This document shows, piece after piece, positions 5,696 to 32,984 of a stretch of DNA of 64,000 nt. Made by a program: the position numbers and the translations under genes. Location: assembly GCF_014252375.1 (NCBI RefSeq), contig NZ_CP059221.1, forward strand, positions 382,001 to 446,000, written 5' to 3'. This DNA comes from Blattabacterium cuenoti. GTDB lineage: Bacteria; Bacteroidota; Bacteroidia; Flavobacteriales; Blattabacteriaceae. The notes under the pieces are model-generated. The model was not told the DNA's origin. It was given only the letters and a program-made list of their open reading frames with translations, and did no database searches. Numbering within the stretch: the stretch's first letter is position 1; every line of letters starts with the position of its first letter.

Positions 5696-7081
5696 TTATA
5701 AATAAATAGATTTTTTGTATGCAAATGATACTGATTCTAAAATGGATTCACTTAATGATGGATAAGGATAAATTCCATTTAATATTTCATAGGCTGTAGC
5801 TTCTAATTTTCTAGCAATCATAATCTCTGTTATTAAATTTATAACATTTTTTCCTATTATATGACATCCTAATAATTCGTCATATTTAGAATCAAAAATC
5901 ATTTTTATAAATCCATCTTTACTTTCATTAATCATTGAACTATTTAGTAAACTAAATGGTATTTTAGATATTTTTGTATGATATTTTCTTTTTTTAGATT
6001 CTTCTTCAGTAAAACCTATATACGCTATTTCTGGAATAGAAAATATACATTTTGGTATATTATTATAATCAATTTTTTGAGAATCTATTCCTTTTATATT
6101 TTCTACACAAGAAATTCCTTCTTTTGAGGCTATAGAAGCTAAAGATGGTGTATTTATTACGCTTCCAATAGCATAATATCCAGGTATATTAGTTCGATAA
6201 TTTTCATTTACTACGATAAATTTATTTTCAACTTGAATTCCTAATTCTTCTAATCCAATAGAATCAGTATTAGGTACTGTGTCTAATAAAAGTACCATAT
6301 CTGTTTCAATAGAAAATTTTTTATTATTATTTTTAATTTTTAAAATTATTTTACCGTTTTTTTTTTCAAATTTTTCTATAAAAGAATATTCATAAATTTT
6401 TATTCCTATATTTTTTAAATAATGTTTTAAATAACATGATACATCATTATCTCCATCTGTAAAAAAATTATTATTATCTATAATAGAAATTTTTGTTCCC
6501 ATATAATAATAATAAGAGGCAAATTCTATGGCATTATGATCACTTCCAATTATAACTATTTCTTTAGGTTTTTTATTTAATTTAATTGCTTCTTTATAAT
6601 TTATAAAATTTTTTTCATCATATAATTTACTAGACTTAGATCCAGTAGAGATAATAATATTTGAAGCAGTACATTCTAATATAGAATTATTTTTTTGAAA
6701 AATTTCTATTTTTTTTCCTTTTTTAAGTTTTGCATTTCCATATATAACATTTATTTTATTTTTTTTTATGGAAAAAAAAATATTTTCTTTTATTTTATTA
6801 GAAATTTTATTACCCTCTAAAAAAATTTTATAAAAATCAATATTAATTTTTTTATAATCAATTCCTAATAAATATTTATTATCTTTAAATAATTGAAAAA
6901 TCTTTATTTTATTCAAAAAATATTTTAATAAACATTCGTAATTAAAATAAAATCCTCCAATAAATTCTTTCTCTATCAAAGCAGTTCTCATTCCTAATTG
7001 AGATGAACGTATAGATGCTGAATATCCAGCGGATCCACTACCTAAAATTATAATATCAAAATTCATAGATGTTCTACTCAT
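5696..7081 (-). CDS. lpd: Lipoamide dehydrogenase homologue with degenerate active site
   Basis: Clear dihydrolipoamide dehydrogenase (E3) homologue of normal length (461 residues) with FAD, NAD, central and interface domains in order. The N-terminal FAD motif GSGSAG (14-19) survives. The redox pair is broken: the usual GGxCLNxGCIPSK reads GGFYFNYECLLK, so the first Cys is Tyr45 and only Cys50 remains. The NAD-binding GGGxIG is GSDHNA (179-184). The GRxPN motif is DTVPN (267-271). The FAD-binding GD is GS (306-307). The C-terminal HxHPTxxE is YPYPSLSE (438-445), replacing the catalytic His by Tyr440 while Glu445 remains. No stop or frameshift interrupts it. Canonical E3 activity is very unlikely. 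It may be a structural remnant, a repurposed flavoprotein or an early pseudogene; an active copy would be expected elsewhere. Confidence 0.85.
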   Translation of the reverse strand: MSRTSMNFDIIILGSGSAGYSASIRSSQLGMRTALIEKEFIGGFYFNYECLLKYFLNKIKIFQLFKDNKYLLGIDYKKINIDFYKIFLEGNKISNKIKENIFFSIKKNKINVIYGNAKLKKGKKIEIFQKNNSILECTASNIIISTGSKSSKLYDEKNFINYKEAIKLNKKPKEIVIIGSDHNAIEFASYYYYMGTKISIIDNNNFFTDGDNDVSCYLKHYLKNIGIKIYEYSFIEKFEKKNGKIILKIKNNNKKFSIETDMVLLLDTVPNTDSIGLEELGIQVENKFIVVNENYRTNIPGYYAIGSVINTPSLASIASKEGISCVENIKGIDSQKIDYNNIPKCIFSIPEIAYIGFTEEESKKRKYHTKISKIPFSLLNSSMINESKDGFIKMIFDSKYDELLGCHIIGKNVINLITEIMIARKLEATAYEILNGIYPYPSLSESILESVSFAYKKSIYL

Positions 7082-24980: not shown

Positions 24981-25381
24981 AAATAATTGTAAGTAAAAAA
25001 GGTTATTTTAGTGCATCACATAGACTTTTTAATAATTTATGGGATAAAAAAAAAAACGCTAGATTTTTTGGAAAATGTTACAATGATCATGGTCATAATT
25101 ATAAATACATAGTAAGTGTAAAAGGAGAAGTAGATCCAATAACTGGATTTGTAATAAATTTAAATGAATTAAAAAACATTCTTGATAAAAATATAAAAGA
25201 ATATTTTGATCATAAAAATATTAATTTAGAATTAAAAGAATTTGAAACTATTATTCCTACTTTAGAAAATATTGCAATAGTAATATGGAAAAAAATAAAA
25301 AATAAAATATCTTCTAAATTTGAATTAAAAATTATTTTATACGAAACAGAAAATAATTTTGTTGAATATGATGGAAATTAA
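24977..25381 (+). CDS. queD: 6-carboxytetrahydropterin synthase / PTPS family
   Basis: Pterin-forming enzyme of 134 residues. Zinc ligands are in SASHRL (about residue 13) and HGHNY; the catalytic Cys is in GKCYNDHGHNY, and the C-terminal PTLENIAIVIW and YETENNFVEY strands fit the family. In Bacteroidota the gene routinely follows idi and is annotated as QueD (queuosine) or as a folate-pathway PTPS; which applies here cannot be decided from this window. Overlaps gcvT by 14 bases. Confidence 0.9.
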   Translation: MKIIVSKKGYFSASHRLFNNLWDKKKNARFFGKCYNDHGHNYKYIVSVKGEVDPITGFVINLNELKNILDKNIKEYFDHKNINLELKEFETIIPTLENIAIVIWKKIKNKISSKFELKIILYETENNFVEYDGN

Positions 25382-26483
25382 AAATTTAAAAAAAACATCA
25401 TTATATGATGTACATGTTAAATTAAATGCAAAAATAATAAATTTTTCAGGATTTTATATGCCAGTTCAGTATAAATCTTCATTAGAAGAGCATATGTATG
25501 TAAGAAATTACTCTGGATTATTTGATGTTAGTCATATGGGAAAATTAATAGTAAAAGGAAAAAATTCCAAAAAAATTTTACAATATTTAACAACAAATGA
25601 TTTATCAAAAATAAGTCCAGGACAAGCTCAGTATACATGTTTTACAAATGAAAATGGGGGGATTATAGATGATTTGGTTATTTATTGTTTAAAACATTAT
25701 GAATATTTACTTATAGTAAATGCCATTAATATTGAAAAAAATAAAAAATGGATTTTAAAAAATAAAAAAAACAACTTATTAAAGTTAATTGATTTTTCAG
25801 AAAAATATTCTTTATTAGCAATACAAGGTCCACTTTCTATAGTTTATATACAGAAACTAACATCTATTATATTAGATAAAATTCCATTTTATCATTTTAA
25901 AATAGGGGATCTATGCGGAATAAAAAATGTTTTAATATCCAATACAGGATATACTGGATCAGCAGGTATAGAAATTTATGTTTCTAATAAATACGTTAAA
26001 AGTATATGGAATAATATATTAAATATAGGAAATGGAAAAATAATACCATGTGGTATTTCTAGTAGAAATTCATTAAGATTGGAAATGGGATATCGTTTAT
26101 ATGGTCAAGATATTTCAGAAAATATAACCCCAATAGAATCTGGATTATCATGGATAGTTAATTTTAAAAAAAATTTTATATCAAAAGATATTTTAATAAA
26201 ACAAAAAAAATCTGGAGTATATAAAAAATTTTTATCATTTTATATAAATGATTTAAAAGTTTGTATACCAAGAAATGGACATAAAATTATTGATGAATAC
26301 AATAATATAATTGGATTTGTAACATCAGGTTCATATTCTCCAATAATAAAAAAATGTATAGGACTTGGATATTTATATAAAAATTATAGTAAAATTACTA
26401 ATATGTTTATTTTAATAAGAAATAAAAAAATTTCCATAAAAATAAAAAAATTACCTTTTATAAAAATAAAAAAAGTTAATTAA
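25368..26483 (+). CDS. gcvT: Aminomethyltransferase, glycine cleavage T protein
   Basis: Transfers the methylene group of glycine from lipoylated H protein to tetrahydrofolate. About 371 residues, normal length. Conserved segments: KTSLYDVHVKLNAKIINFSGFYMPVQY at the N-terminus, the FDVSHMGK and LTTNDLSKI folate-binding motifs, NTGYTGSAGIEIYV, and the C-terminal GFVTSGSYSP. Start is ATG at 25368 or 25371 (adjacent in-frame codons); an upstream TTG at 25359 is less likely. It depends on a lipoamide dehydrogenase for the L-protein role, which matters given the degenerate lpd in this window. Confidence 0.95.
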   Translation: MMEIKNLKKTSLYDVHVKLNAKIINFSGFYMPVQYKSSLEEHMYVRNYSGLFDVSHMGKLIVKGKNSKKILQYLTTNDLSKISPGQAQYTCFTNENGGIIDDLVIYCLKHYEYLLIVNAINIEKNKKWILKNKKNNLLKLIDFSEKYSLLAIQGPLSIVYIQKLTSIILDKIPFYHFKIGDLCGIKNVLISNTGYTGSAGIEIYVSNKYVKSIWNNILNIGNGKIIPCGISSRNSLRLEMGYRLYGQDISENITPIESGLSWIVNFKKNFISKDILIKQKKSGVYKKFLSFYINDLKVCIPRNGHKIIDEYNNIIGFVTSGSYSPIIKKCIGLGYLYKNYSKITNMFILIRNKKISIKIKKLPFIKIKKVN

Positions 26484-31279: not shown

Positions 31280-31337
31280 TATTTTTTAAAAAAAATTAAC
31301 TAAATTTAGTAAAATATATAAATAAAAATAAGATCTT

Positions 31338-32984
31338 ATTTACTTACATTTTATAGAAAAAATAATAGAAGAAGATATAAAAAATGGTTTTCCTAAAAAA
31401 AAAATAAAATTCCGTTTTCCACCTGAACCAAATGGAGTATTACATATTGGACATGTTAAGGCAATTTATTTAAATTTTGAATTAGGTAAAAAATATAATT
31501 CTCCTGTTAATTTAAGATTCGATGATACTAATCCTAATAAAGAAAGTAAAAAATTTATAAAATCTATTAAAGAAGATATCCTATTTTTAGGATTTAAATG
31601 GGATAAAGAAAGCTATGCATCAGATTATTTTAAAAATCTTTATGATTTAGCAAAAACTTTAATAAAAAATAATTATGCATATATAGATGATCAACCAAAA
31701 TATAAAATAAAACTTCAAAGAAAAAATTATTTTGAATCAGGAATTAATAGTAACAATAGAAATAGATCAATAGAAGAAAACTTATTTTTATTTGAAAAAA
31801 TGAAAAATGGTTTTTTTAAAGAAGGATTTTGTGTATTAAGAGCTAAAATAGATATGAGTTCTTCTAATATAAATATGAGGGATCCTATAATGTATAGAAT
31901 TATAAAAAAAAAACATTATAAAACTGGATATAACTGGTGTATTTATCCAACTTATGATTGGGCACATGGTCAATGTGATTATATTGAACAAATATCTCAT
32001 TCTTTATGTTCATTAGAATTTGAAAATAAACGTCCATTGTATAATTGGTTTATAAAAAAAATATGTAATAACAAAAATATTAAGCCAAAACAAATAGAGT
32101 TTTCAAGATTAAATTTAAGCAATACAATAACTAGTAAAAGAAAAATACAATTTTTAATAAAAAATAAAATTATTAAATCTTGGGACGATCCAAGACTATC
32201 AACAATATCTGGTTTACGAAAAAGAGGATATACATCTACATCTATAAAAAATTTTATAAAAGAAGTAGGAGTTTCAAAAAGAAATAATACTATAGATAAA
32301 TCTTTATTAGAATTCTGGATTAGAAAAGATTTGAATAAAATAACTCCTAGAATTATGGTTGTAATAAATCCAATAAAAATTACTATAACAAATTATCCAG
32401 AAAATAATGTAGAATGGATGAATGCAGAAAATAATCCTGAAAATATTAATTCAGGATTTAGAAAAATTCCTTTTTCAAAAAATTTATATATAGAGTATAA
32501 TGATTTTTTGGAGAAAAAAAAAGAAAATTTTTTTCGTCTTTATATAGGAAATGAAGTTAGACTTAAAAATGCTTATATTATTAAGGCTAATTCAATAAAA
32601 AAAAATGATAATGGACTTATAAAAGAAATATATTGTACTTATGATCCACTTAGTAGATCAAAAGAATCAAAAAACAATAGAAAAATAAAAAGTACTTTAC
32701 ATTGGGTATCTATACAACATTCATTTATTATAAAAATAAATTTATATGAAAAACTTTTTTTAAAAAAAAATATAAATCATATAAATGAAAAAATATATGA
32801 AAATATAAATTTAAAATCCTTGAAAAAGACAATAGGATACGCCGAACCTTATTTAAAAAATATAGCTAAAGTAGGAAATCACATCCAATTCCAAAGAATT
32901 GGATATTTTTATATAGAAAAAATTAATAATAATGTAATAACTTTTAATAAAACGATTTCCTTGAAGGGCTATAAAAACAAATAG
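31338..32984 (+). CDS. glnS: Glutaminyl-tRNA synthetase, probable ATT start
   Basis: Class I synthetase charging tRNA-Gln. The first ATG (31800) lies far inside the gene. The frame upstream is open and encodes FIEKIIEEDIKNGFP, the PPEPNGVLHIGH motif (31422-31457), NLRFDDTNP and the active-site region, so those about 150 residues belong to the enzyme. Between the in-frame stop at 31329-31331 and the HIGH region there is no ATG, GTG or TTG; ATT at 31338 is the best start and gives 548 residues, close to the 554 of E. coli. The KMSKS-like motif is ITSKRK. Convergent with rpoC, separated by 6 bases. Confidence 0.93.
   Translation: MYLHFIEKIIEEDIKNGFPKKKIKFRFPPEPNGVLHIGHVKAIYLNFELGKKYNSPVNLRFDDTNPNKESKKFIKSIKEDILFLGFKWDKESYASDYFKNLYDLAKTLIKNNYAYIDDQPKYKIKLQRKNYFESGINSNNRNRSIEENLFLFEKMKNGFFKEGFCVLRAKIDMSSSNINMRDPIMYRIIKKKHYKTGYNWCIYPTYDWAHGQCDYIEQISHSLCSLEFENKRPLYNWFIKKICNNKNIKPKQIEFSRLNLSNTITSKRKIQFLIKNKIIKSWDDPRLSTISGLRKRGYTSTSIKNFIKEVGVSKRNNTIDKSLLEFWIRKDLNKITPRIMVVINPIKITITNYPENNVEWMNAENNPENINSGFRKIPFSKNLYIEYNDFLEKKKENFFRLYIGNEVRLKNAYIIKANSIKKNDNGLIKEIYCTYDPLSRSKESKNNRKIKSTLHWVSIQHSFIIKINLYEKLFLKKNINHINEKIYENINLKSLKKTIGYAEPYLKNIAKVGNHIQFQRIGYFYIEKINNNVITFNKTISLKGYKNK

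Follow-up and report, generated by a model that had tools for sequence, protein, structure and literature searches.

Does a gene that has lost the active site of its enzyme still encode a protein with a job to do, or is it simply dead? The lpdA gene of a Blattabacterium strain raises this question. The window (the whole 64,000-nucleotide stretch of DNA that was analysed) comes from the 574 kb genome of a cockroach symbiont, here termed G000, whose sister strain is G039. The closest named relatives that homology turned up are the Blattabacterium cuenoti strains ESCALves and ECTONUhan. In the original prediction, lpdA was read as a dihydrolipoyl dehydrogenase (E3) with its catalytic signatures erased, retained in a non-catalytic role or else a very young pseudogene. 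The features of the gene are as follows:

5696..7081, minus strand: lpdA, open reading frame of 461 codons for a protein of predicted E3 fold, full length, without interruption
7025..7042, minus strand: first FAD-binding motif GSGSAG, residues 14–19; G14, G16 and G19 kept, Pro17 replaced by Ser
6947..6949, minus strand: codon 45, TAT (Tyr), replacing the first redox Cys; TGT or TGC in canonical copies
6932..6934, minus strand: codon 50, second redox Cys, retained in G000; Tyr in G039
6530..6547, minus strand: NAD-binding motif, residues 179–184, GSDHNA replacing GSGSIG (G181D, G184A)
6161..6166, minus strand: second FAD motif, residues 306–307, GS replacing GD (D307S)
6068..6070, minus strand: Asp338, kept (from the alignment to 1EBD) and retained in 8 of 8 dead copies
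5762..5764, minus strand: codon 440, TAT (Tyr), replacing the catalytic His; Glu445 kept

Active-site losses in a full-length gene

Compared with known E3 enzymes (family model TIGR01350; solved structures 6UZI and 1EBD), lpdA is alike in a match that spans the full length, in predicted fold, in the first FAD motif and in its dimerisation domain (PF02852), but it scores 368 bits, below the family cut-off of 408.8, and has lost the first redox Cys, the catalytic His, the NAD-motif glycines and the FAD Asp. The reference set for individual residues consists of 45 canonical lpdA orthologues (39 from the genus and 6 from other genera). Residues invariant in all 45 and changed in G000 are C45Y, L46F, G49E, T52L, G181D, G184A, D307S, H316S and H440Y; Cys50, G14, G16, G19, Glu37, Glu186 and Glu445 are kept. 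Losses at invariant positions are enriched at active-site and cofactor positions, as defined in a hand-made site list (Fisher p 0.005 for G039 and 0.034 for G000). The conserved Pro that directly follows Cys50 is deleted in both strains.

Most of the motif changes originally described are borne out. Tyr45 for the first redox Cys, GS for GD in the FAD-binding motif and Tyr440 for the catalytic His are all genuine, the Cys, Asp and His being invariant in canonical copies. Of the redox-active pair CxxxxC only Cys50 is left, HPxxxE retains Glu445 without its His, and the second FAD motif is without its Asp. The intact 461-codon frame and the first FAD motif (GxGxxG) are confirmed. Two points need qualification. 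The NAD-binding motif GxGxxG indeed reads GSDHNA, with real losses at G181D and G184A, but the loss of a “GGG” was overstated, healthy lpdA in this genus reading GSGSIG. Likewise, DTVPN in place of GRxPN is a weak sign, and in its missing Arg no mark of decay, because healthy genus orthologues (IG-x-x-PN) also lack that Arg; what did change is the first Gly of IGxxPN (G267D). Judging from these residues, the lpdA product of G000 is predicted to be catalytically inactive.

AlphaFold2 with 18 sequences gave a mean pLDDT of 62.6 for G000 lpdA and 77.2 for a canonical orthologue in the same alignment, whose depth limits both values; Foldseek matched the low-confidence lpdA model to the solved E3 6UZI (TM 0.88). 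Because the sequences were too few, structure prediction is not used here as evidence of folding quality.

A second E3 and repeated loss across the genus

If lpdA is inactive, E3 chemistry has to come from elsewhere. The search of the genome for a canonical lpd that the original prediction proposed turned up a second E3 gene, lpdB (C1:448390-449775), 2.4 kb past the window end and 35% identical to lpdA. It is canonical throughout, with both cysteines, the GGG NAD motif, GD and HPHP; no examined lpdB has lost the redox Cys pair, NAD motif, FAD Asp or catalytic His. Judged by these motifs, E3 activity in G000 is supplied by lpdB. The window itself contains a gene of an E3-dependent system:

25359..26483, plus strand: gcvT, open reading frame

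The partners gcvP and gcvH lie elsewhere in the G000 genome, and the lipoyl Lys of gcvH is retained wherever it was inspected. Three E2 types occur in nearly all genus genomes, and the E1alpha, E1beta and E2 genes of pyruvate dehydrogenase (PDH) are intact in G000, PDH E2 with its peripheral subunit-binding domain. The expectation that E3 activity is still needed therefore stands: gcvH with its lipoyl Lys and three E2 genes remain, and the genome that holds them also encodes the canonical lpdB. It can be ruled out that lpdA died because its clients had been lost: three E2 types remain (G014 has two), as do PDH E1, gcvH with its lipoyl Lys and gcvP.

Some further observations concern these systems and the window. 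Two E2 genes, not three, are present in the smallest of the genomes, G014 (511 kb); the missing one corresponds to the match near C1:6000, which in the genomes read is the BKD-type E2. PDH E2 of G022 (L147) carries a tandem duplication of the stretch after its lipoyl domain (GVKEGE..VNDLLAIIGEKGEDINHLIKKNKTIKSISPI repeated). In glnS (glutaminyl-tRNA synthetase; window 31330-32984, plus strand), the frame is open through the HIGH-type region, and no ATG, GTG or TTG occurs from the preceding stop until well into the protein; translation may begin at an ATT, or there may be an indel upstream.

The state of lpdA varies widely among related strains. Of 49 genus genomes, 47 carry the gene, 39 of them in canonical form and 8 with a broken active site; in the other 2 (G006 and G013) it is cleanly deleted, so that adk adjoins tal. 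All eight broken orthologues are without Cys45, which is replaced by Tyr in G000, G039, G010 and G009, Ser in G022 and G014, Phe in G029 and Gly in G043; losses beyond Cys45 vary from copy to copy. In an unrooted tree of nine genes from 23 genomes, G000 and G039 are sisters, close to G010, G022 and G014; G009 and G029 cluster with the canonical G038, and G043 clusters with the canonical G001; G006 and G013 make up a clade of their own. The broken-or-absent state requires at least 4 changes on this tree, the exact number being uncertain because of the long branches and the missing root. The ten genomes in which lpdA is broken or absent all measure 511–595 kb, and among genomes with size shown, those with canonical lpdA have at least 605 kb, except G038 (586 kb).

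Selection after loss of the active site

G000 and G039 have 36 derived columns in common that no canonical copy shows; C45Y, H440Y, G184A and the Pro deletion are among them. Since the key losses are shared, catalysis was lost in their ancestor, before the two lineages split; a very recent loss of function confined to G000 is the less likely reading. Divergence between the two copies therefore records what happened to the gene afterwards. Pairwise omega for lpdA is 0.169 at dS 0.95 (bootstrap 95% interval 0.13–0.21; 0.176 with mutational base frequencies at all codon positions), and omega of 1 is rejected (likelihood-ratio statistic 97). In the same comparison, lpdB gives 0.119 and nine other genes 0.008–0.144; repeat fits of control genes differ somewhat (lpdB 0.088, obgE 0.141).

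Branch models agree: omega on the lpdA tips is 0.193, and fixing the tips at 1 is rejected (2dlnL 87), compared with 0.128 for the canonical lpdA background and 0.135 for lpdB on the same tips. Some relaxation is indicated, a four-class branch model being mildly better than a single omega (2dlnL 8.9, 3 df). By domain, tip omega is 0.128 for the interface domain (residues 339–461), 0.163 for the FAD domain, 0.203 for the central domain and 0.292 for the NAD domain. On the stem branch, lpdA omega cannot be distinguished from 1, a value that is uninformative because the controls adk and obgE also give 0.5–0.7 there.

A neutral simulation calibrated on third-position divergence (200 runs) predicts 15–19 in-frame stops per lineage (about 17); none of the 200 runs gave zero, and zero is what is observed. 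The simulation is conservative, because many third-position changes are non-synonymous here.

These results bear directly on the possibility of a neutrally decaying pseudogene or a sequencing error. Lost active-site motifs and a stem omega indistinguishable from 1 are what neutral decay would leave, but the same key states recur in the independently assembled G039, stops and frameshifts are absent, and omega of 1 is rejected on the tips. Neutral decay is refuted for the interval since the G000/G039 split, and the explanation as a whole is highly improbable. The “very young pseudogene” of the original prediction fails for the same reasons, its key losses being common to G039 and selection having continued since; sequencing error fails on the G039 assembly. 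The dN/dS comparison with a sister strain, also proposed at the outset, gave an omega of 0.17, not near 1, and no frameshifts in either strain. What is found is a combination expected of a pseudoenzyme, namely catalytic residues lost and purifying selection after the loss, and not the neutral substitution pattern, stops or frameshifts of a pseudogene. Both strains keep a full-length copy. Strong purifying selection and the lack of stops together mean that lpdA has continued to be maintained at the protein level, under slightly relaxed constraint and with its catalytic residues gone. Most likely the gene is not dead and its product, though non-catalytic, still has a function; the selection analysis thereby supports the earlier suggestion of a retained non-catalytic role.

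Candidate roles of the maintained protein

Related genera offer a clue to what that job might be. In G049 and G050 the only E2 is of the PDH type and the only E3 is lpdA. In G067, OGDH E1 and E2 as well as lpdB are intact, whereas PDH E2 and lpdA survive as fragments and no PDH E1alpha was found. An lpdA-type gene is absent from G051 and G052, whose sole E3 carries lpdB-type motifs, and in G051 this gene adjoins the OGDH-type E2. These presence patterns suggest a link of lpdA to PDH and of lpdB to OGDH. Two side observations belong here: G067 (L058, L151) has apparently lost the PDH complex jointly, and PDH E2 of G051 and G052 (L153, L154, L182) is about 330 aa long, without the peripheral subunit-binding domain.

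The interface domain is the least changed part of lpdA on the tips. Asp338, Arg424 and Glu427 are retained in all eight dead copies; Asp338 is presumably the equivalent of Asp344 in 1EBD, a contact to the E2 binding domain. Conservation of the interface domain is not specific, because it is the slowest domain in canonical copies too; it would be compatible with continued docking on PDH and is not proof of it.

The explanation tentatively preferred, at a little under an even chance, is that lpdA is a pseudoenzyme retained because of a structural role: it would probably dock on PDH as an E3-shaped dimer, leaving the chemistry to lpdB. Under this model, lpdA would be the E3 paralogue that historically served PDH. 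In the ancestor of G000 and G039 it would have become unable to oxidise dihydrolipoamide (redox Cys, catalytic His, NAD-motif glycines and FAD-contact Asp), a loss that could be covered by the second E3, lpdB, and the protein itself would have stayed under selection as an E3-shaped structural subunit, probably on PDH. Both the docking and the structural role are inferred from residue conservation and gene co-occurrence. The role would be dispensable in G006 and G013, because lpdA is deleted there yet PDH with its binding domain is kept. Further points speak against a PDH scaffold: a dead E3 bound to PDH would be in competition with lpdB, and the mild relaxation (G000 tip omega 0.26) is compatible with slow erosion as well.

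A retained role unrelated to PDH (moonlighting, regulatory or in mixed dimers with lpdB) is rather unlikely, although parts of the selection data would suit it. The whole fold is selected rather than a single patch, all four domains being well below omega 1 on the tips, and loss of activity in several lineages is expected if a second, separable function exists. However, neither a new partner nor a fusion nor a conserved new neighbour was seen. In mixed lpdA/lpdB dimers of G000 neither site would work, since Cys45 and His440 are both gone; completion of a mixed active site by the two proteins is thus unlikely in this strain.

Less likely still, lpdA might have no positive role: redundant and on its way out, it would be under selection that only purges variants that misfold, aggregate or clog PDH. 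Cover by lpdB, deletion in G006 and G013, the restriction of broken and absent cases to smaller genomes and the relaxation favoured by the branch-class model (2dlnL 8.9, 3 df) all fit. Tip omega of 0.13–0.21, however, is close to that of essential neighbours (obgE 0.09–0.14, adk 0.14), and a stop codon or deletion would end the cost at once; neither lineage has one.

Finally, the protein could be an altered flavoprotein that keeps FAD and, lacking the disulfide, catalyses some other redox reaction. Chemistry of this kind is known from some E3-like quinone reductases: mycobacterial LpdA is E3-like, without the active-site disulfide, and keeps NAD(P) and FAD binding. Like it, lpdA here has a predicted E3 fold without a functional disulfide, and the first FAD motif, Glu37 and, in G000, Cys50 are kept; but its NAD motif is broken too, the NAD-motif glycines and FAD-contact Asp307 have changed in G000 as well as in G039, and Cys50 is Tyr in G039. 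Such a function is very unlikely.

A precedent for the preferred structural role on PDH is the E3-binding protein (E3BP) of mitochondrial PDH, a non-catalytic paralogue with a structural job. E3BP plays the kind of role proposed for lpdA, but derives from E2, not E3. More generally, lpdA resembles pseudoenzymes that arise from a redundant paralogue, in which catalytic residues are lost and the fold is kept by purifying selection; it differs from known cases in that the loss occurred in parallel, several times, in an obligate symbiont whose genome is shrinking, and one clade finally deleted the gene. No report of an E3 pseudoenzyme was found in the open-access papers searched; Blattabacterium genome comparisons in subscription journals may mention lpd.

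Redundant genes are expected to be discarded in reduced symbiont genomes. Here, the active site of the redundant lpdA has been lost independently in several lineages, yet its fold is kept long afterwards, at least in the G000/G039 lineage. For the genus as a whole, it is possible, though the balance leans against it, that shrinking Blattabacterium genomes repeatedly turned a PDH-specific E3 into a selectively maintained non-catalytic PDH scaffold, the E3 of OGDH taking over the chemistry. The gene amounts to a natural experiment that separates the catalytic from the structural function of an enzyme, and dead, canonical and deleted lpdA within one genus provide a concrete test case for the simplification of multienzyme complexes.
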